A stretch of DNA of 64,000 bases from Kineosporia mesophila (GTDB lineage Bacteria > Actinomycetota > Actinomycetes > Actinomycetales > Kineosporiaceae), in the NCBI RefSeq assembly GCF_021129235.1, contig NZ_JAJOMA010000004.1, forward strand, positions 186,001-250,000, in the 5' to 3' direction. A program made the translations under genes and the position numbers. The notes below the pieces were generated by a model. The model saw only the letters and a program-made list of their open reading frames with translations. It was not told the DNA's origin and did no database searches. Positions 1 through 26,676 of this stretch are shown here, piece by piece (position 1 is the stretch's first letter; each line of letters starts with the position of its first letter).

Positions 1-713
1 TGTCCCAGAAGACCGAGATCTGGGCGAAACAGCTTTCCCGGGCGGGCATCACGATGGATCTGGCGCCGGTCGCCGACACCGTGCCGAGCGGTACCGAACG
101 CCGCAACCCGCCGATCGGGGTGTTCGGCCGGGAGTACGGCACCGACACCGCCACGGTCTCCCGGGCCGTCACCACCGTCACCACCGCGCTCGAGAAGAAC
201 GCGGTGATCGCGACGGTGAAGCACTTCCCCGGGCTGGGGCGGGTCACGAAGAACACCGACACCTCCAGCGGGGTCGTCGACACCCGCACCACCGCGAACG
301 ACACCTACCTGCGCCCCTTCCAGGCCGGCATCGACGCGGGAGCGGGCGCGGTCATGATCAGTTCCGCCACCTACCGCCGGATCGACCCGGACAACCGGGC
401 CGTGTTCTCGTCGAAGGTGATCACCGGCCTGCTGCGCGAGCAGATGGGCTACCAGGGCGTGGTGATGACCGACGACGTCGGGGCGGCCAAGGCCGTCACC
501 GACGTCGCCCCCGGTCAGCGGGCCGTGCGGTTCATCAACGCCGGGGGCGACCTGGTGCTCACCGTGCCCAGTGATCAGGCCCGCGCGATGATGGTGGCCA
601 TCACGAAAAAGGCTGCCGTGAACCGGAACTTCAGCAAGAAGGTCGAGGCCTCGGTCACCCGGGTACTCACCCTCAAGCAGAAAGCCGGCCTGCTCACCTG
701 TAACGAGGGCTAA
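1..713 (+). CDS. Glycoside hydrolase family 3 protein, C-terminal part (5' end outside window)
   Basis: The reading frame is open from the window edge, with the first complete codon at base 3, so the gene starts upstream. The visible part has GH3/NagZ-type landmarks: a GITMDLAPVADT block near base 50, and KHFPGLG followed by NTDTSSG, which corresponds to the KHFPGHGxxxxDTH substrate and acid-base loop of beta-N-acetylhexosaminidases. It ends with the conserved 'MTDDVGAAKA' nucleophile region (MTDD). GH3 enzymes of this type remove N-acetylglucosamine from muropeptides or other glycans and are often exported. The histidine usual in the DTH motif is absent here, where DTSSG is read, so the exact activity is uncertain. 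The TAA stop overlaps the convergent pcrA stop by four bases. Confidence 0.85.
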   Translation, partial: SQKTEIWAKQLSRAGITMDLAPVADTVPSGTERRNPPIGVFGREYGTDTATVSRAVTTVTTALEKNAVIATVKHFPGLGRVTKNTDTSSGVVDTRTTANDTYLRPFQAGIDAGAGAVMISSATYRRIDPDNRAVFSSKVITGLLREQMGYQGVVMTDDVGAAKAVTDVAPGQRAVRFINAGGDLVLTVPSDQARAMMVAITKKAAVNRNFSKKVEASVTRVLTLKQKAGLLTCNEG

Positions 714-3187
714 AGCTTGACCACCGGCGCGTACCTCAGCAGCAACCGCTTGACGCCCTCACCGAAATCGATGTGGGCCACGGTCTTGTCGCCCTCGCCG
801 ACCACCTCGATCACCCGGCCCATGCCGAACGTGTCGTGCGTGACGCGGTCACCCGGCTCCAGGTTGACGGCCGCGCGGTTACCCGTCGATCGCGCGCCCG
901 GACGTTGCGCCAGGCGGGCCACGGCCGGGGTGGACGACGCGCGCATCTGCGTGGACTCGCTGCGGCGCCAGGTGATCAGGTCGACCGGGATCTCGTTGAG
1001 GAACCGGCTGGGCGGGTTGTAACTGGGCTGGCCCCAGGCACTCCGGATGGCGGCGCGGGTGATGTAGAGCCGCTCCTTCGCCCGGGTCAGGCCGACGTAG
1101 GCCAGACGGCGCTCCTCGGCCAGTTCCTTCGGGTCCTGCAGCGAGCGCAGGTGCGGGAACGCGCCGTCTTCCAGGCCGGTGAGGAAGACGACGGGGAACT
1201 CCAGGCCCTTGGCGGTGTGGAGGGTCATCAGGGTGATGACGCCCTCGTCCTCCTTGGGCTCGTCGCCCTCGGTCTCCTCGTCTTCGGGGATCTCGTCGGC
1301 GTCGGCCACCAGCGACACCTGCTCGAGGAAGTCCTGCAGGGTGCCGCCGGGCGTGGTGCGCGAGTAATCCTGGGTGACGGCCACGAGCTCGGCCAGGTTC
1401 TCCACGCGGGACTCGTCTTGTGGGTCGTGGCTGGCCCGCAGCTCTTCCAGGTAGCCGGTCTGCTCCAGCACGGCCTCCAGCACGGTGCCCGGGTCGGAAC
1501 CGCTCTCGACCAGGGTGCGCAACTGCTCGACCAGCTCGGAGAACCGCTTGACGGCCGTCAGCGAGCGGGTGGCGATGCCCGGCGCCTCGTCGGCCCGGAA
1601 CAGTGCGTCGCCGAACGAGATGTTCTCCCGGTCGGCCAGCGCGGCCAGGGCGCCCTCGGCCCGGTCACCGATGCCGCGCTTGGGCACGTTGATGATGCGC
1701 CGCAGGTTGACCGTGTCGGCCGGGTTGACCAGCACCCGCAGGTAGGCCAGCGCGTCTTTGATCTCGCGGCGCTCGTAGAACCGGGTGCCGCCGACCACCT
1801 TGTAGGGCAGGCCCGCGCGCACCAGTACTTCCTCGAGGGCCCGGGACTGGGCGTTGGTGCGGTAGAAGATCGCGACGTCGCCCGGCCGCACCGACTCCTG
1901 CTTCTGGAGCTTCTCGACCTCCTCGGCGACGAACGCGGCCTCGTCGTGCTCGTCGTCGGCCACGTACCCGGTGATCTGCGTGCCGGTGGCCCCGGCCGTC
2001 CAGAGCTTCTTCGGCTTGCGGTCGGGGTTGTGCTCGATCACCGCGTTGGCCGCGGAGAGGATGGTCTGCGTGGAGCGGTAGTTCTGCTCCAGCATGATCG
2101 TCTGCGCCTGCGGGTAGTCGAGCTCGAACTCGATGATGTTGCGGATCGAGGCGCCCCGGAACGCGTAGATCGACTGGTCGGCGTCGCCCACCACGGTCAG
2201 CTCGGCCATCGGGATCGGTGGCGTGCCGTCAGTGCCGGGGGTGTTGGGGCTGGCCGTCGGACCGCCCGCCAGCTCGCGGATCAGCACGTACTGGGCGTGG
2301 TTGGTGTCTTGGTACTCGTCTACCATGATGTGCCGGAACCGGCGCCGGTACTGCTCCGCGACCTCGGGGAAGGCCTGGAAGATGTTGACCGTGGTCATGA
2401 TCAGGTCGTCGAAGTCGAGCGCGTTGGCCTGGCGCAGCCGCCGCTGGTAACCCGTGTAGACGTCAGCCAGTACCCGCTCGCCCGGGTTGCTCTCACTGAC
2501 GCGCCCGGAATTGGTCTCCTCGTCGATCAGCTCGTTCTTGAGGTTGGAGATCTGCGCGGCCAGCCCCCGGGGCGGGAACTTCTTCGGGTCGAGATCGAGT
2601 TCGCGGGCGACCAGGCCGATCAGGCGCTGCGAGTCGGCCGAGTCGTAGATCGAGAAGTTCGACTTCAGGCCGACCTTCGTGGCCTCCCGCCGCAGGATGC
2701 GCACGCAGGACGAGTGGAACGTGGACACCCAGATCGACGACGCCCGCGGCCCGACCATGGTGGCCACCCGCTCACGCATCTCGGCCGCGGCCTTGTTGGT
2801 GAACGTGATCGCCAGGATCTGCCCGGGCCGCACGTTGCGCGCGGCCAGCAGGTAGCCGATGCGGTGGGTGAGCACACGGGTCTTGCCCGAGCCCGCTCCC
2901 GCCATGATGAGCAACGGTGAGTCGCGGTGCAGCACGGCCGCCTGCTGCTGCTCGTTCAGCCCGAGGACCAGCTTCTCCGGGTCGAGGTTCGGCGCGATGG
3001 CTCGTAGATCCCGCGCAGGCGCCTCGTCACCCTGGACCAGCGTGGGCAGCGGGTAGCGCTTCGCCGAGCGTTCGGCAGCCAGCAGCCGGGCCCTGTCCTT
3101 GGGAGAAGGCGCAGCCGGCTCAGGCACGGGCTCAGGCTCAGACTCGGGCTCAGGCTCGGCATCGGGAAGATCGAATAGCGTGCTCAT
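710..3187 (-). CDS. pcrA: ATP-dependent DNA helicase PcrA/UvrD, superfamily 1
   Basis: An 825-residue SF1A 3'-5' DNA helicase used in nucleotide excision repair, replication restart and removal of proteins from DNA. The Walker A motif AGAGSGKT lies at residues 96-103. Motif II (DEYQDTN), motif III (GDADQSIYAFRGA), motif IV (LEQNYRS) and motif VI (VGLTRAKERL) follow in order. The C-terminal 50 residues (GDRVTHDTFGMGRVIEVVG) form the Tudor-like RNA-polymerase-binding domain of PcrA. The first 40 residues are a Glu/Pro-rich disordered leader made of repeated SEPEPE-type units, longer than in most homologues. The ATG at 3187 is preceded by TAGGCT eight bases upstream, suggesting a very short or absent leader. 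Confidence 0.97.
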   Translation of the reverse strand: MSTLFDLPDAEPEPESEPEPVPEPAAPSPKDRARLLAAERSAKRYPLPTLVQGDEAPARDLRAIAPNLDPEKLVLGLNEQQQAAVLHRDSPLLIMAGAGSGKTRVLTHRIGYLLAARNVRPGQILAITFTNKAAAEMRERVATMVGPRASSIWVSTFHSSCVRILRREATKVGLKSNFSIYDSADSQRLIGLVARELDLDPKKFPPRGLAAQISNLKNELIDEETNSGRVSESNPGERVLADVYTGYQRRLRQANALDFDDLIMTTVNIFQAFPEVAEQYRRRFRHIMVDEYQDTNHAQYVLIRELAGGPTASPNTPGTDGTPPIPMAELTVVGDADQSIYAFRGASIRNIIEFELDYPQAQTIMLEQNYRSTQTILSAANAVIEHNPDRKPKKLWTAGATGTQITGYVADDEHDEAAFVAEEVEKLQKQESVRPGDVAIFYRTNAQSRALEEVLVRAGLPYKVVGGTRFYERREIKDALAYLRVLVNPADTVNLRRIINVPKRGIGDRAEGALAALADRENISFGDALFRADEAPGIATRSLTAVKRFSELVEQLRTLVESGSDPGTVLEAVLEQTGYLEELRASHDPQDESRVENLAELVAVTQDYSRTTPGGTLQDFLEQVSLVADADEIPEDEETEGDEPKEDEGVITLMTLHTAKGLEFPVVFLTGLEDGAFPHLRSLQDPKELAEERRLAYVGLTRAKERLYITRAAIRSAWGQPSYNPPSRFLNEIPVDLITWRRSESTQMRASSTPAVARLAQRPGARSTGNRAAVNLEPGDRVTHDTFGMGRVIEVVGEGDKTVAHIDFGEGVKRLLLRYAPVVKL

Positions 3188-17001: not shown

Positions 17002-17056
17002 ACGCGCTGCACGTGGGGGCCAGGAAACTGGGGTGCGGACGACCCTGGTCCCTCCG

Positions 17057-17062
17057 TACCGT
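17057..17062 (+). promoter_or_regulatory. -10 element TACCGT for leaderless ABC exporter operon
   Basis: TACCGT is followed by seven bases and GTG 17070. The GAGAG just before the GTG is too close to serve as a Shine-Dalgarno. Confidence 0.45.
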
Positions 17063-17069
17063 CGGAGAG

Positions 17070-18794
17070 GTGATCACGCTCCCCGATCCGGTACCGCCCC
17101 GGCCGTCCATCACCTCACCCACCGCCTACATCCTCTCGATGGCCCGGCTCCAGCGGCGCACCCTGGCCGGGGGTGCCCTGCTGGGCGTGCTCTGGATGGG
17201 GAGCCAGGCCGCGATCCCGCTGGTGGTCGGCAACACCATCGACGCCGGGCTGGTCGCACGCGATTCCTCCGCCCTGGTCACCGGCTGTCTGGTGCTGGTC
17301 GGGCTGGCGTTCGCCTCGGCCTTCTCGGGCATGATGCGCCACCGGTTCGCGGTGTCGAACTGGCTGCTGGGCGCGCTGCGCAGTCAGCACCTGGTCGGGC
17401 ACCACGTGGCCGACCACGGTCTGGCGGTCTCCGGAAAGGTCACCACCGGTGAGGTGGTGCAGGCCGTGAGCACCGACGGGCCGCGTTTCGCCGACCTGAT
17501 GGACATCGCCGCGCGGGGCACCGGCACCGTCGTCGCCTTCGGCGCCGTGGCCGTCTACCTGCTCCGGATCGACCTGGCCATCGGGCTGTTCGTGGTGATC
17601 GGCATGCCCCTGCTGGCCGCCGGGCTGATTGTGCTGATCCAGCCGCTGCAGAGCCGGCAGTCCCGCCACCGCGCCCGCGAGGGTGACCTCACCTCGCTGG
17701 GCGCCGACACCGTGGCCGGGCTGCGGGTGCTGCGAGGTATCGGCGGGGAGGACCAGTTCACGGCCCGCTACGCCGAGCACAGTCAGGAGGTGCGGCGCGC
17801 CGGGGTCCGGGTGGCCGGGCTCCAGGCCCTGCTCGACGCCGCGCACGTCCTGCTGCCCGGTGCCTTCCTGGCCGGGCTGACCTGGCTGGCCGGGCACGGG
17901 GTGGTGGAGGGCCGCCTCAGCGTGGGCGACCTGGTCACGGTCTACGCCGTCACCGCGTTCCTCCAGCTACCGCTCCAGACGTCGACCGAGGTGCTGTCCC
18001 GGTGGGTGCGAGCCCGGGTGGCGGCGGAGCGGCTGATCGGGGTGCTGGGCCGATCCGTCCCCACCTCGGCGACCACCGATCTACCGGAGCCCAACGGCGT
18101 CCTCCATGACCCTCCCTCCGGATTGACCGTGCCGGTGGGATCCCTGACCGCGCTGGTCAGTGCCCGGCCGGAGACCGGGATCGAGATCGCCGACCGGCTC
18201 GCGGCGCTCGCCCCCGGCGCCCGGCTGGGTGACCTGCCGCTCGAGCATCTGCCCGCCGACCTGGTCCGCCGGCGGGTGGTGCTGAGCGAGGCCGATCCCC
18301 GGCTGTTCACCGGCACCCTGCGCGAGCAGATCGACCCGCTGGGCCGGCACACCGACGAGGAGGTGCTCGGGGCGGTGCACACGGCCGATGCCTTCGACGT
18401 GCTGACGGGACTGCCCGAGGGTCTGGACGCGCCGGTCGCCGAGCGTGGGCGCGACTTCTCGGGCGGCCAACGGCAGCGCCTCGCCCTGGCCCGCGCCCTG
18501 TTACTGGCCACCCACCCCGACGTCGAGGTACTGGTGCTGGTCGAGCCGACCTCGGCGGTCGACGCGCACACCGAGGCCCGGATCGCCGACCGGTTGCACG
18601 CTTCCCGTTCGGGGAAAACAACTTTGGTCGTGTCGTCCAGTCCGCTGGTGCTCGATCGGTGCGATCGGGTGGTCTTTCTCGATGAAGGACGCGTGGGTGC
18701 CTCGGGCACGCACCGGTCCCTTCTGTCGTCGTCCCCCCGGTATCGAGAAGTGGTAGTGCGTAGTGAGACCGTGGCTGAGGAGACCCGACGATGA
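17070..18794 (+). CDS. ABC exporter half-transporter with degenerate ATPase domain
   Basis: A 574-residue ABC half-transporter: six-helix membrane domain (to about residue 310), then a nucleotide-binding domain. The ABC signature FSGGQRQRLALARAL (from residue 463) is intact, but the other ATP-binding elements are lost. The Walker A site reads VSARPETGIEIADRLA without GKST, the Q-loop Gln is Glu (VLSEADPRLF), the Walker B Asp is Val (VLVLVEPTSAVD), and the switch His is replaced (VVSSSPLVL). It can therefore only lend its signature motif to a partner. The partner starts four bases before this gene's stop (ATGA overlap). GTG 17070 is preferred because of the -10 element just upstream. The substrate is unknown. 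Confidence 0.92.
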   Translation: MITLPDPVPPRPSITSPTAYILSMARLQRRTLAGGALLGVLWMGSQAAIPLVVGNTIDAGLVARDSSALVTGCLVLVGLAFASAFSGMMRHRFAVSNWLLGALRSQHLVGHHVADHGLAVSGKVTTGEVVQAVSTDGPRFADLMDIAARGTGTVVAFGAVAVYLLRIDLAIGLFVVIGMPLLAAGLIVLIQPLQSRQSRHRAREGDLTSLGADTVAGLRVLRGIGGEDQFTARYAEHSQEVRRAGVRVAGLQALLDAAHVLLPGAFLAGLTWLAGHGVVEGRLSVGDLVTVYAVTAFLQLPLQTSTEVLSRWVRARVAAERLIGVLGRSVPTSATTDLPEPNGVLHDPPSGLTVPVGSLTALVSARPETGIEIADRLAALAPGARLGDLPLEHLPADLVRRRVVLSEADPRLFTGTLREQIDPLGRHTDEEVLGAVHTADAFDVLTGLPEGLDAPVAERGRDFSGGQRQRLALARALLLATHPDVEVLVLVEPTSAVDAHTEARIADRLHASRSGKTTLVVSSSPLVLDRCDRVVFLDEGRVGASGTHRSLLSSSPRYREVVVRSETVAEETRR

Positions 18795-20827
18795 GCGCCC
18801 TGCTGCCGATCGCCCCGCGGGAACGGGTGCGTCAGGAGACCACCCGGCTGCTGCACCGGCACCGCCGGGCCTTCGCCTCCTCGGTCACCGCGCACGGGGC
18901 TGCGGCCGTCGTCGCGCTGGCCGGCCCCGCCCTGCTCGGCCGTCTGGTGCAGGACTTCACCGACGGCTCCGCCACCGGCTCGTCCGTGGATCACGCGGTG
19001 GCGCTGCTGGCCGTCGCCGTCCTCGTCCAGGCCGGCCTGGCCTGGTACGCCAACCGCAGCTCGCTGGTGCTCGGCGAGCGGGTGTTCGCCGAGATGCGGG
19101 AGGACTTCCTGCGCGAGGTCACCCGGCTGCCGTTGTCCGTGGTCGAGCGGGCCGGCAGCGGTGACCTGATCTCGCGCACCACCAACGACGTCGAGGCCGT
19201 CAGCCACAGCGTGCGGTACGCCGTGCCGAACGTGGTGGTCGGCGCCATCTCCCTGGCCGTCACCGTGGCCGCGATCCTCGTCACCTCGCCCCTGGTCGGG
19301 CTGGCCGCGCTGACCGGGGCGTTCTTCATCGTCCCGACGACGCGCTGGTACCTGCGCCGCGCCCGGGACGCCTACCTGGCCGAGATGGCCGCCTACGCCC
19401 GTCTGGACGGCACGGTGAGCGAAACCCTCGACGGGGCCCGCACCGTCGCCGCCCTGCGACTCGGTGGGCGACGCCGGCAGCGGGTGGACGACGACCTGCG
19501 CGAGGTCTACCGCGCGGAGAGGTACACCCTGTTCCTGCGCACCGTGTGGTCGCCGCTGGTCGAGTTCGGCTACATCATCCCGACCGCCGCCGTGCTCGCC
19601 TGGGGTGGCTGGCTCACCCTCACCGGCCGGGCCTCGGCCGGCGAGGTCACCACCGTGGCGCTGTACGTGTCCCAGCTGATGGGCCCGCTCGACCTGATCC
19701 TGGAATGGACGGACGAACTCCAGATCGGCGGCGCCTCCCTGGCCCGCATCATCGGCATCGGGCGGATACCGGACGACCGCACCGCCTCGGCCTCCGCCGG
19801 CGATCTCCCGGACGGCTCCCGCGCCATCCAGGCCCGCGACGTGCGCTACGCGTACCGCGGTGACCTGGACGTGCTGCACGGTGTCTCCCTGACTCTGCGG
19901 CCCGGCGAAAGGCTGGCTGTGGTCGGGCCGAGCGGGGCTGGGAAGTCCACGTTGGGAAGGCTTCTGGCAGGGATCCATCCACCGAGGACTGGGGCGGTGA
20001 CGGTGTTGGCTGGTGTGGGTACTGGTGTGGGTGTGGTTACTGGTGTGGGTGTGAGTTCTGGTGTGGGCGTGAGTTCTGGCGCCGTTTCGAGTGCGGGCGC
20101 CGGTGCCAGCGCGGGTGCCAGTGCGGGCGCCGGTGCCAGCGCGGGTGCCAGTGCCGGTGCCAGTGCCGGTGCCAGTGCCGGTGCCAGCGCTTCAAGCAAG
20201 AGCCCCGGCCGCGGCCCTGACTCTGGCCCTAGCCCTGACTCTGGCCCTAGCCCTGGCCCTGGCCCTGGCCCTGGCCCTGGCCCTGGCCCTGGCATCAGCC
20301 TGGTAGCTCTGCCACTCCCCGATCTGCGGCAACAGGTGGCGCTGGTGACGCAGGAACAACACGTCTTCGTCGGAACGCTGGCGGACAACCTGCGCCTGGC
20401 CCGGGCGGACTCCCCGGACACGGAACTCATGCGCGCCCTCGACGCCGTCGACGCCCTGCCCTGGGTTCTGAATCTGCCGGAAGGACTTTCGACAGCCGTC
20501 GGGTCGGGCGGCCACAGTCTCACCCCGAGCCAGGCCCAGCAGGTGGCGCTGGCCCGGCTGGTGCTGTCCGACCCCCACACCCTGGTGCTGGACGAGGCCA
20601 CGTCGCTGCTCGATCCCCGCGCCGCCCGTCACCTGGAACGCTCGCTGTCGGCCGTACTCGCAGGACGCACGGTGGTGGCGGTCGCCCACCGCCTACACAC
20701 CGCCCACGACGCCGACCGTGTCGCCGTGGTCGAGGGCGGCCAGATCACCGAGCTAGGAACCCACGACGAGTTGCTTCAGCACGGCGGCTCGTACGCTGCT
20801 CTGTGGAGGTCTTGGCAGGAGGGCTAG
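18791..20827 (+). CDS. ABC exporter half-transporter with active ATPase and low-complexity insertion
   Basis: A 678-residue partner half-transporter. The membrane domain runs to about residue 330 (LPLSVVERAGSGDLISRTTNDVE marks an exporter coupling region). The ATPase has a consensus Walker A (VVGPSGAGKSTLGRLLAG, about 378-395), Q-loop VTQEQHVF, Walker B TLVLDEATSLLD and switch VVAVAHRLH. Its signature is atypical: LTPSQAQQVALARL instead of LSGGQ. Roughly 100 residues between Walker A and the Q-loop (about 403-502) are repetitive Gly-Val-Ser, Ala-Gly-Ser and Gly-Pro tracts absent from normal exporters, where about 45 residues suffice. It couples to the upstream half by ATGA and ends overlapping a convergent gene. 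Confidence 0.92.
   Translation: MSALLPIAPRERVRQETTRLLHRHRRAFASSVTAHGAAAVVALAGPALLGRLVQDFTDGSATGSSVDHAVALLAVAVLVQAGLAWYANRSSLVLGERVFAEMREDFLREVTRLPLSVVERAGSGDLISRTTNDVEAVSHSVRYAVPNVVVGAISLAVTVAAILVTSPLVGLAALTGAFFIVPTTRWYLRRARDAYLAEMAAYARLDGTVSETLDGARTVAALRLGGRRRQRVDDDLREVYRAERYTLFLRTVWSPLVEFGYIIPTAAVLAWGGWLTLTGRASAGEVTTVALYVSQLMGPLDLILEWTDELQIGGASLARIIGIGRIPDDRTASASAGDLPDGSRAIQARDVRYAYRGDLDVLHGVSLTLRPGERLAVVGPSGAGKSTLGRLLAGIHPPRTGAVTVLAGVGTGVGVVTGVGVSSGVGVSSGAVSSAGAGASAGASAGAGASAGASAGASAGASAGASASSKSPGRGPDSGPSPDSGPSPGPGPGPGPGPGPGISLVALPLPDLRQQVALVTQEQHVFVGTLADNLRLARADSPDTELMRALDAVDALPWVLNLPEGLSTAVGSGGHSLTPSQAQQVALARLVLSDPHTLVLDEATSLLDPRAARHLERSLSAVLAGRTVVAVAHRLHTAHDADRVAVVEGGQITELGTHDELLQHGGSYAALWRSWQEG
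20006..20295 (+). repeat. Three consecutive in-frame microrepeats inside the ABC ATPase gene
   Basis: The first block has 18-bp-like units around GGTGTGGGTGTG, the second 12-bp units GCCGGTGCCAGT, and the third 6-bp units GGCCCT. All unit lengths are multiples of three, so copy-number changes keep the frame. The blocks use GGT, AGT and CCT codons more than the surrounding gene. Confidence 0.85.
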
Positions 20828-22752: not shown

Positions 22753-22787
22753 GGTCGACAACCCATTGCCCCGGACGCCGACCTGGC

Positions 22788-22817
22788 GCCTGTGGATAAA
22801 GAGCACTTTCCACAGGC
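22788..22817. repeat. Inverted repeat containing a perfect DnaA-box 9-mer
   Basis: Arms GCCTGTGGA (22788-22796) and TCCACAGGC (22809-22817) are perfectly complementary. The left arm continues to TGTGGATAA (22791-22799), the reverse complement of the consensus DnaA box TTATCCACA. It lies in the divergent region between the DUF2786 and DUF222-HNH genes. Operator or DnaA-binding function is possible but untested. Confidence 0.5.
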
Positions 22818-22970
22818 CGCTGTTCCCAAGAGTCGGCCATGTCCATCCCTCCAGGGCCGTTCCGCCCCACTGGGCACAGCACAACCATTCTCTTTGCAGA
22901 AAGCAGCATTTCAATCATTCATCTCCTCACGGGGCGCTGACCCGAGGTCCCAGAAGTCCGAAAAATGGGC

Positions 22971-22992
22971 TAATATTCGAACAGGAGTTCGA
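22971..22992 (+). promoter_or_regulatory. TAATAT -10 fused to a perfect LexA (SOS) box
   Basis: TAATAT at 22971-22976 is followed directly by TCGAACAGGAGTTCGA at 22977-22992. This is an exact TCGAAC-N4-GTTCGA palindrome, the LexA-binding consensus of mycobacteria and other actinobacteria. LexA bound here would cover the -10/+1 region and repress the DUF222-HNH gene starting at 23018. Confidence 0.85.
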
Positions 22993-23017
22993 ACGACGGT
23001 ACGGGGGTTCGGTCACG

Positions 23018-25522
23018 ATGGAGAATCAGTTGTCCGCCTGGCCCGACGTCGCTCTACCCTCCTTGAGCATGTCCGATCTCTTTCAGGCCGTCGAAAGTTC
23101 CTACCGCGCAGAAGCATCAGAGAGTCAATACCTCGGTGCGGCGGTGGGGGCCGAGCGCCTGAAGCGACACCTGGATGCCATCCAGTCCCAATGTCTGTAC
23201 AAGGCGGCCAGCTTGGCCGCTCAATCACTTCCCACCCAGAGCTCGTACGAAACCGTTGACGGCATCGAGTCGATCGGCGCCGAGATCGGCATGGCGCTGG
23301 GGCTTACCCGACATCAGGCGAACGATCGGGTGGGAGAATCCGTACTGGTCTGCCCCGAACTCCCTCTGCTGGTGGCACTGGTCGATGCCGGGGATCTGGA
23401 CTGGCGCACGGTCGTTGCCGTGCATACCCGAATGCGTAACTCTTTGCAGCCCGGCACTTACGAGTGGGAAGCAGTGCAGGCCGCCCTGGTCCAGTTGCTG
23501 CCCGGGATGTCGCACGGCCAGGCCCTCGCCGCGGCCCAGCGAGAGATCCAGAAGGTCGATCCCTCGGCCGCCCGAACACGCCATCAGAAGGAGAGAAAAG
23601 ACCGCTGCATCAGAGCTTTTCCACTTACTGACGGAATGGGAGGCCTCTACGCGAAGCTGACGGCCGACCAGACCATGATGATCCACGCCCTGCTCGACGG
23701 CCTGGCCGATGCGTGTCGCGATCAGTCTCGCCGGGCCGGCAACCCAGACCCACGCAGCCATCAGGAACGCCGAGCCGATGCCTTCGTGGCCATCTTCCGG
23801 TCCATTCACGACCACAGCCCATTGCCGTTCGTTCCCGTGCCCCAAGAACCTGTCGGCTCCTTCGGCGGACGAGTGGTACCGCCCGGACACCCCGACGCCC
23901 CGGCCTCCCCTCCAAGCGGTGTTCCGGCACCGCGCCGAGCAAACGCCTCGGCTTCGCCCCGTCCGGGCAGGCCCGCCTCACCACGCCCCGGCTCACCGGC
24001 CCCACAGCAGCGCAACGGCGCAGCTACACAGACATCCGACGGGTCTGCCCCATCGCAACCTCATGCATCGACCTCGCGACAGCCCGACCGAGCAGGAACA
24101 TCTCGATCCGACCAGCCGATTCCGATGCAGCCCGCCAGGCCCGCATCACCGCGCTCCGATGAGCCTGGTGCACCGCACTCTGAAAGCTCGGACTCACCAC
24201 CAGACGCTTCGCCTCAAGGCCGGCCAGGTCCTGCGGACCAGACTCCGGAATCCATTCTGGGCTGGTGGCTGCCCCCTGCCCTGCCCCGACAGCAGGGACG
24301 CAAACCTCAGCTGGTCGTCACGATCACCATGGACACCTTGCGAGGTATCGACGACCTGCCCGGCGAGCTCCAGGGCATGGGTGCGGTACCGGCCGACCTC
24401 GCCCGCGAGATAGCCCGGCAGGCAGGGAACGTCATGGTGATCCGTGTCGATGGACGGATGCAAGATGCTTCCGGTCGGACCAACCGTCCGACCGGCCAGG
24501 GCCGCGAATCAGGGGACCCGTCCCCCAGTCAGGCCACGGGGCCTGACAACCCGAGCCCGCGGTTCCACGACAACGGCTACGACCGGGGCGACCGGGGCGA
24601 CCGGGGCGACCGGGGCGACCGGGGCGACCGGGGCGACAAGTCTGGTCATCGCAACCCCACTCCTAACGACAATGGTCCCAACCACAACCCCGCGCCCGCC
24701 GACAGCGCTCCCACCAACACCCATGCACACCAGGACTACGGACCGCACGACCCGGCCCCTGAACCGCACAAACAGCGCCGTGGCCCACACGACAAGCGCA
24801 ACGAACCGCCTGTCCAGCCTGGCGAAACCCACGACCAGCGCGACAGGTCCGACGACCAGCACTATGGGCTCGGCGACCAGCAGCGTAAGTCCCATGAGCA
24901 GCATCACGGACCTGGAGACCAGGCCAACTGCACCGAACCCTCGCCCCGGTACAAGCCCCGTCAGTCCGTCCTTGACCAGGTGATGGGGCGTTTCCAGCAG
25001 TGCGTACATCCCAGTTGCTCCCGGCCGGCGAAACAGTGCGATATCGACCATGCGATCCCGTTCAACCAAGGAGGGAAGTCATGTCCTTGTAACTTGGTTC
25101 CTCTATGCCGTTTTCATCATCGCCTCAAGACACATGGCGGATGGACGATGCGCCTCACCCGCCCCGACGAGCCTTATCCGACCGGCAGCATCGAATGGCG
25201 GAGCCGTCTGGGCCAGCACCGAGTACAACTGCCTCCGCCCCTTCCCGGTACCCATGGGAACTACGGGAATCGCGGAACTACCGAGCCCACCGAGCCCACC
25301 GAGCCCACCGAGCCCACCGAGCCCACCGAGCCCACCGAGCCCACCGAGCCCACCGAGCCCACCGAGCCCACCGAGCCCACCGAGCCGGAGGATTCAGCGG
25401 ACCAGAAGGTGCGTCATCAATTTCGGCTCGGGGAGTGGCAGAAAGATCTGCAGAGTCTCGCGCCGCGCAACCCACCGGTTCCCCGGCAGTCCGACATCAA
25501 TTTCGGAGAGCCGCCCTTCTGA
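23018..25522 (+). CDS. DUF222 and HNH endonuclease-signature protein (13E12-type), SOS-box controlled
   Basis: 834 residues from ATG 23018 (the frame is open further 5', but that part precedes the promoter). N-terminal DUF222 domain, about residues 15-300. It is interrupted by a Pro/Ser/Ala-rich region and resumes at QLVVTITMDTLRGIDDLPGELQ. A second disordered, His/Asp-rich stretch follows, then the C-terminal HNH motif: CVHPSC, then CDIDHAIPFNQGGKSC, then NLVPLCRFHHRLKTHGGW. HNH domains of this class are nucleases or nuclease relatives, and 13E12 proteins in M. tuberculosis include SOS-induced genes. The protein is much longer than the usual 400-500 residues because of the two insertions and a C-terminal Thr-Glu-Pro repeat. 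Base composition is lower in GC than that of its neighbours. Confidence 0.9.
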   Translation: MENQLSAWPDVALPSLSMSDLFQAVESSYRAEASESQYLGAAVGAERLKRHLDAIQSQCLYKAASLAAQSLPTQSSYETVDGIESIGAEIGMALGLTRHQANDRVGESVLVCPELPLLVALVDAGDLDWRTVVAVHTRMRNSLQPGTYEWEAVQAALVQLLPGMSHGQALAAAQREIQKVDPSAARTRHQKERKDRCIRAFPLTDGMGGLYAKLTADQTMMIHALLDGLADACRDQSRRAGNPDPRSHQERRADAFVAIFRSIHDHSPLPFVPVPQEPVGSFGGRVVPPGHPDAPASPPSGVPAPRRANASASPRPGRPASPRPGSPAPQQRNGAATQTSDGSAPSQPHASTSRQPDRAGTSRSDQPIPMQPARPASPRSDEPGAPHSESSDSPPDASPQGRPGPADQTPESILGWWLPPALPRQQGRKPQLVVTITMDTLRGIDDLPGELQGMGAVPADLAREIARQAGNVMVIRVDGRMQDASGRTNRPTGQGRESGDPSPSQATGPDNPSPRFHDNGYDRGDRGDRGDRGDRGDRGDKSGHRNPTPNDNGPNHNPAPADSAPTNTHAHQDYGPHDPAPEPHKQRRGPHDKRNEPPVQPGETHDQRDRSDDQHYGLGDQQRKSHEQHHGPGDQANCTEPSPRYKPRQSVLDQVMGRFQQCVHPSCSRPAKQCDIDHAIPFNQGGKSCPCNLVPLCRFHHRLKTHGGWTMRLTRPDEPYPTGSIEWRSRLGQHRVQLPPPLPGTHGNYGNRGTTEPTEPTEPTEPTEPTEPTEPTEPTEPTEPTEPTEPEDSADQKVRHQFRLGEWQKDLQSLAPRNPPVPRQSDINFGEPPF
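24581..24634 (+). repeat. 9-bp tandem repeat, six copies, in DUF222-HNH gene
   Basis: Six exact copies of GACCGGGGC encode Asp-Arg-Gly repeats in the disordered linker between the DUF222 and HNH domains. The unit length preserves the reading frame. Confidence 0.95.
25280..25387 (+). repeat. 9-bp tandem repeat, twelve copies, encoding Thr-Glu-Pro
   Basis: Twelve copies of ACCGAGCCC (the last with a CCG end) follow the HNH domain and encode (TEP)12, an extended acidic tail. Near-perfect identity suggests recent slippage expansion. Confidence 0.95.
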
Positions 25523-26521: not shown

Positions 26522-26676
26522 AGAAGTCCTCAACACTCAAAAGTCATGCCCGTCAGAAGTCATGCCCGTCAGAAGTCATACCCACCCAGCAATCGCGCTC
26601 TCTCAGCAGTCACACCCCACCCAACAATCACACCCCACCCAGAAATCACGCACAGCTTAGAAATCACGCACAGCTA
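26522..26676 (-). repeat. Degenerate tandem array, nine units of 16-18 bp
   Basis: A heptamer close to AGAAGTC (plus strand) recurs nine times at a period of 17, 16, 16, 17, 17, 17, 18, 18 and 18 bp. It fills the entire spacer between DUF1295 and the methyltransferase and runs into the latter's final codons. The two units nearest that gene share an identical 17-mer, AGAAATCACGCACAGCT, one copy of which encodes the protein's last residues. The unit nearest DUF1295 abuts its start codon. Confidence 0.85.

Follow-up and report, generated by a model that had tools for sequence, protein, structure and literature searches.

Heterodimeric type I ABC exporters with one degenerate site, including TmrAB, BmrCD, TM287/288 and MsRv1273c/72c, are encoded by adjacent partner genes and have one complete composite ATP site. 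Repeat-built, disordered loops are tolerated in folded proteins of Plasmodium and other organisms, and in type IC restriction systems (the EcoR124 family) the number of in-frame tetrapeptide repeats in the HsdS spacer sets a distance within the protein. The regulatory insertion of CFTR is located before Walker A. As described in PMC9825563, it is a disordered segment at the N-terminal end of NBD1. A report on MutL of Salmonella and E. coli (PMC2955026) describes three copies of a 6-bp sequence, GCTGGC, that undergo slippage, with demonstrated conversion between functional and defective forms. In the account given of MsRv1273c (PMC12038006), the degenerate site binds ATP via its Walker A.

The locus described here lies in a 64,000-nucleotide stretch of the Kineosporia mesophila genome (contig NZ_JAJOMA010000004.1, positions 186,001 to 250,000), the whole of which we refer to as the window. 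Two adjacent genes encode a putative heterodimeric ABC exporter with one degenerate site (Table 1). A TMD (PF00664) and an NBD (PF00005) were found in each half of the pair, although the PF00005 match in the partner is below threshold (24.7 bits against a cut-off of 25). The two genes divide the elements of a composite site between them, with Walker A and Walker B in one half and the signature in the other. Because the motif that we take to be the ABC signature of the Walker A/B-bearing subunit is degenerate, the working site should be composite, and we expect one complete site made from Walker A/B of the insert-bearing subunit and the signature of its partner. A preliminary description of this DNA called the insert-bearing subunit the only active ATPase. 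This fits the pair, in that the partner shows no P-loop. In an alignment of the window's subunit with 53 relatives (54 sequences; 15 of 68 loci, with partial or weak matches, were omitted), the invariant columns include G379, S381, G382, G384, K385, S386 and T387 of Walker A, V519, T520, Q521 and E522 of the Q-loop region (Q523 is almost invariant), D601, E602, A603 and T604 of Walker B, and His633, presumably the H-loop. An antisense open reading frame (19846-20601, minus strand) was considered and set aside, as the plus frame has the support of conservation.

Table 1. Features of the exporter gene pair and of the insert (coordinates are positions in the window).
Feature	Coordinates	Strand	Basis
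Partner subunit	17013..18794	+	PF00664; PF00005 just below cut-off; SGGQ signature, degenerate Walker B LVEPTS, no Walker A P-loop
Walker A/B-bearing ABC exporter subunit (TMD + NBD), 678 aa, carries the insert	18791..20827	+	ORF; PF00664 and PF00005 (PF00005 in two stretches)
Walker A, GPSGAGKST, residues 379-387	19925..19951	+	translation
Low-complexity insert, 98 codons, residues 406-503	20006..20299	+	flanked by V405 and L504; between Walker A and Q-loop
Array 1, 18-bp units, 3.8 copies, Gly-Val/Ser	20012..20079	+	TRF
Array 2, 12/18/30-bp units (overlapping TRF rows), Ala-Gly-Ser	20090..20190	+	TRF
Array 3, 6-bp units (CCTGGC), 15.3 copies, Gly-Pro	20202..20293	+	TRF
Q-loop region, VTQEQ, residues 519-523	20345..20359	+	translation
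Presumed degenerate ABC signature, LTPSQ, residues 577-581	20519..20533	+	translation
Walker B, LVLDEAT, with catalytic Glu, residues 598-604	20582..20602	+	translation
Presumed H-loop, His633	20687..20689	+	invariant column in the 54-sequence alignment

The preliminary description reported a low-complexity insertion of about 100 residues in the ATPase core, built of three microrepeats, and both the insertion and the three arrays are present. Its start, 20006, was placed correctly; the insert runs four bases beyond the reported end, 20295. The insert begins with LAGVG, ends with GPGIS and has a mostly hexameric (two-codon) rhythm that passes from Gly/Ser-Val to Gly/Ser-Ala to Pro-Gly. The longest perfect tract of 30-bp period in array 2 is 65 nt, and the longest perfect tract in array 3 is 44 nt (20250-20293). 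As had been proposed, the units are multiples of three and neutral for the frame: the TRF periods are 6, 12, 18 and 30, which are not those of a frame-shifting phase-variable locus. Codon choice also differs as suggested: third-position GC content drops from 0.90 over the remainder of the gene to 0.56 in the insert, and 10,000 resamplings of the codons used by the partner and by the gene outside the insert gave no value as low. Third-position GC is reduced in the 35 codons on either side of the insert as well (0.74 and 0.77). The idea that DNA secondary structure drives the expansion was not supported (z = 0.70 on the plus strand and -1.36 on the minus strand). NucS, an actinobacterial mismatch-repair enzyme, is described as leaving indels uncorrected (PMC8228993), which is background to the idea that slippage goes unrepaired. 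A recent survey (PMC12699852) reports that tri- and hexanucleotide repeats are enriched in most prokaryotic phyla and that bacterial genomes are on average no more repetitive than expected.

The loop in which the insert sits was thought to be short normally, and it is: the stretch between V405 and L504 has 4 residues in all 51 aligned relatives from outside Kineosporia. In contrast, all five Kineosporia genomes in which an orthologue was found exceed 4 residues. There are 98 in the window's genome (G000), 43 in G004, where a (Gly-Ser)n run forms the end, and 70 in the single-contig genome G005, made of Ala-Gly-Ser-Ala-Ser and Ala-Gly-Thr-Ala-Gly-Ser repeats (a count that leaves out a preceding Thr-Val). 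K. rhizophila has 13 residues and K. babensis 8; the gene order guaA-DUF3817-SURF1-partner-ABC...DUF2786 is kept in both, and we therefore regard their ABC genes as orthologues. Thus, orthologues checked for one fixed insertion length have none in common (98/43/70/13/8/4). DNA searches for orthologues covered 6 genomes of the genus and 13 of the family, at a sensitivity that distant copies would escape. G007, from another genus of the family, has the ordinary 4-residue turn. G002 gave nothing at 1e-40 and only a partial 68% match, which we took as no orthologue, and six further genomes of the family gave no DNA match at 1e-40. In a small tree, G000 and G004 form one group (100/99), and K. rhizophila and K. 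babensis form another with weaker support (93/92). Long spacing between Walker A and Walker B occurred in none of 13 other Kineosporia NBDs, in a motif search whose pattern misses the focal family and covers part of the NBDs. Judged from these sequences, the insert position is a genus-specific site of apparent recurrent expansion. Elsewhere in the family, five Streptomyces relatives (L048, L051, L060, L061 and L072) carry insertions of 9-24 residues that follow reference residue 538, past the Q-loop, and in L051 there is a 24-bp tandem array in the gene near this insertion. In two other relatives, 10-23 residues are inserted behind reference residue 564, and two more insertions, both in L067, lie outside the NBD core.

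The repeats themselves have turned over between close relatives. G000 and G004 are 94.1% identical across 307 kb of BLAST alignments, and their ABC genes are 93% identical upstream of the insert and 91% identical downstream, with unrelated sequence in between; the suggestion that the change is recent is borne out. The three long inserts (window, G004 and G005) consist of different repeats, all in frame, that share no 12-mer. Those of the window and G004, which are from sister genomes, have one 10-mer in common and both end in GIS, whereas that of G005 does not have even an 8-mer in common with either. On both sides of the insert the codon differences between the window and G004 are mostly synonymous (59, against 19 nonsynonymous, upstream; 41 against 7 downstream), and dN/dS between the window and K. 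rhizophila is 0.195/0.593 upstream and 0.109/0.821 downstream. By these measures the conserved parts of the ABC gene are under purifying selection, and the mostly silent changes and low dN/dS indicate that the gene with its insert is probably maintained. The evidence that arrays might raise point mutation nearby is inconsistent. Counts of point differences beside arrays are raised between G000 and G004 (15/42 against 85/499) and between G000 and K. rhizophila (26/39 against 140/396), but not between G000 and G005 (14/39 against 159/427). We also rejected raised synonymous divergence beside arrays: when 400 windows of 39 codons were ranked, those at the top straddled the insert, yet the effect is inconsistent over ten genome pairs.

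An AlphaFold model built with the 54-sequence alignment (mean pLDDT 81.3, pTM 0.70) has a single segment of at least 3 residues with pLDDT below 50, residues 412-497. Ten-residue blocks of the NBD outside the insert have pLDDT of 64-96; three are below 80 (521-530 and 601-620), the lowest being 601-620, after Walker B. Because the strand ahead of the insert (400-407) and the helix behind it (509-515) are both modelled, the natural reading is that the insert is a disordered bulge on a surface beta-hairpin turn, where it would replace 4 residues. It was first described as a linker, a term that does not suit a hairpin turn inside a domain. In a structural search with VIA-align, the best match was to TmrAB (chain 9ryf_A; Z 30.6, rmsd 5.2, 571 aligned residues), followed by BmrCD (Z 29.2), the homodimers MsbA (28.8) and PCAT1 (28.6), and MsRv1273c/72c (28.1). 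The four highest rows are TmrAB and BmrCD, with MsbA and PCAT1 within about 2 Z units.

We favor, with a probability of roughly 70%, the explanation that tandem repeats have repeatedly expanded and turned over in frame at a permissive surface turn and have been filtered for frame and for small, flexible residues. If the units, most of them based on hexamers, undergo slippage or unequal exchange, the repeat could rapidly grow, shrink or be replaced, a rapid process that we infer because insert content differs between sister species. Selection on the protein would preserve the frame and prefer small, uncharged, flexible residues. The loop would then protrude as a disordered segment, with Walker A, the Q-loop, Walker B and the H-loop still assembled, as the folding prediction suggests. 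Permissiveness is favored because several turns of the family's NBDs accept insertions. Most likely, the insert is tolerated and presumably harmless, perhaps mildly modulating, and is not a switch.

A comparison with other genes indicates how ordinary such variation is. Genes in 360 kb of G000 (a genome of 7.78 Mb) were paired with their best BLASTP match, not reciprocal, of at least 65% identity in G004, G005 and K. rhizophila, and segments differing by at least 8 residues were counted. Variable segments were found in 20 of 228 genes with G004 (24 segments, the ABC gene included), 21 of 218 with G005 and 19 of 169 with K. rhizophila. The ABC site is the largest difference from G004; other genes exceed it in the comparisons with G005 and K. 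rhizophila. Most other variable segments are linkers or termini. Among the 14 genes with a difference of at least 20 residues, two have it within a Pfam match, namely the ABC gene and a phosphodiesterase gene (C34:66049-67566); for an epimerase (56925) and a ThiF protein (62606) the position is ambiguous, and the rest have it in linkers, at termini, at a domain edge or in proteins without a Pfam match. Repeat variation is thus a general process in this genome, and its location in a catalytic core is uncommon, not unique.

Composition sets the ABC inserts apart. The combined fraction of Gly, Ala and Ser in the three long inserts is 0.70, 0.74 and 0.84, whereas 28 other segments (the longest variable segment per gene, at least 15 residues, from the 360-kb region and mostly linkers or termini) have a median of 0.31 and a maximum of 0.63. 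The 13 residues of K. rhizophila reach 0.69; the 8 residues of K. babensis, at 0.25, are the exception. The ABC inserts are also low in charged residues. The richness in Gly, Ala and Ser is the best hint of filtering at the level of the protein. Against such a filter, the bias could come from one ancestral Gly/Ser-rich insert, or could mirror GC-rich slippage. Since array 1 is relatively GC-poor (0.60) and GT-rich, the insert is not simply GC-driven.

Several other repeats were observed in the window and the sampled genomes. A DUF222 protein (22766-25522, plus strand), whose C-terminal part appears HNH-like by eye, contains arrays at 24580-24637 and 25280-25386 that encode Asp-Arg-Gly (6.4 copies) and Thr-Glu-Pro (11.9 copies). 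Its G004 orthologue has 4 Thr-Glu-Pro copies and no Asp-Arg-Gly run of at least 3, and tblastn against the regions sampled from G005 and K. rhizophila found no match. Downstream of this gene, at 26537-26675, direct repeats of 16 and 18 bp form a cluster. A UvrD/PcrA-like helicase (713-3187, minus strand; array 3117-3166) has a repeat-built N-terminal tail that varies in length across Kineosporia (a segment of 15 residues, against 113 in G005). The density of tandem arrays (TRF score at least 80) is 111 per Mb in G005 (C1:3243001-3623000), against 39-48 per Mb in G000, G004 and K. rhizophila.

We find it doubtful that the insert is a selected, tunable loop, a rheostat whose copy number would vary within populations and determine how fast the single ATP site works or how it is coupled. 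The repeat units do preserve the frame, a perfect 44-nt hexamer tract is present, length shifts among close relatives are large, and Gly, Ala and Ser are high in four of the five Kineosporia versions. In addition, the insert-bearing domain is the one with Walker A and Walker B, and the other member of the pair shows no P-loop; there is also a precedent in the 6-bp in-frame repeat that PMC2955026 places in the lid of the MutL ATP-binding pocket. However, 8-13 residues suffice in two Kineosporia species, and the repeats are wholly different, so there is no conserved switch. The same sort of variation also occurs in many other genes, and because similar in-frame segments vary in this way, a permissive site is the simpler reading. 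We likewise think it unlikely that the hairpin is a selected entropic loop of variable length, in which Kineosporia would repeatedly regrow a Gly/Ala/Ser bristle from any DNA sequence at this single turn, the length of which would tune the only ATP site left after loss of the P-loop at the exporter's other site. A specific job for the loop, such as partner binding or self-association, is improbable: its Ala-Gly-Ser and Gly-Val runs do resemble silk- or elastin-like repeats, but the loop sequence is unconserved even in comparison with a 94% identical genome, and the insert is missing from the 51 aligned relatives outside Kineosporia. An assembly artefact or a decaying gene is hardly credible, because long arrays occupy this position in G004 and in the single-contig G005 genome as well. 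The assembly of the window's genome is a draft in 61 contigs, but ordinary short reads are longer than its perfect tracts (44-65 nt), frame and motifs are retained, and dN/dS is low.

The partner subunit of this exporter family (17013-18794 in the window; L011-L072 among relatives) appears to have lost its Walker A P-loop. Of 35 partner genes selected by their position, 34 lack the pattern G....GK[ST], and the match in the remaining one, L040, sits away from the site. None of 57 aligned partner sequences has a P-loop at the expected site; sequences resembling GPSGxGKST had been removed from this alignment beforehand to drop the catalytic subunit. SGGQ was reported for 31 of the 35 genes, the pattern having matched elsewhere first in the other 4. 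At Walker B, several relatives' partners retain DEPTS, where the window's partner has LVEPTS. Thus, in this survey the degenerate half shows no ATP-binding Walker A, and the family is possibly driven by one ATP. The closest analogue of P-loop loss that we met is the Walker A Lys to Cys replacement described for Pdr5 (PMC7756269). In L040 and L042, the partner subunits have long, charged insertions at the position that matches the window's hairpin.

These results indicate that a repeat 43-98 residues long, and disordered by prediction, can be accommodated in an ABC ATPase catalytic core while the domain is under apparent purifying selection, and that the repeat sequence can be wholly different between 94% identical genomes. 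The six loop lengths (4, 8, 13, 43, 70 and 98) form a natural series with which to ask what degree of disorder is tolerated in an NBD and whether coupling depends on the length of the loop. The results also draw attention to a family of exporters in which the second subunit apparently lacks a P-loop.

The insert belongs to a known class, that of in-frame low-complexity loops in folded domains; our search of the literature, made on titles and the beginnings of abstracts and thus not proof of absence, found no described case of such an insert. The putative exporter has the fold of the heterodimeric type I exporters, an adjacent partner gene and, as expected from its motifs, one complete composite site. 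It differs from MsRv1273c/72c in that its partner shows no Walker A, through which the degenerate site of MsRv1273c binds ATP. Among the aligned relatives the long insert is found only in Kineosporia. Like CFTR, the subunit has a disordered insert in an NBD, in this case a predicted one. Unlike the regulatory, N-terminal insertion of CFTR, however, the insert follows Walker A, is built of tandem repeats and changes fast. As in MutL, an in-frame repeat with a unit that is a multiple of three lies inside an ATPase domain, but MutL has three copies with demonstrated switching, whereas the insert here has 98 codons and, at most, a hypothetical function. The HsdS repeats form a spacer between recognition domains, whereas this insert would occupy a hairpin turn. 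Finally, compared with low-complexity insertions of the Plasmodium type, what is seen here is one bacterial site that appears to have been hit repeatedly in one genus.
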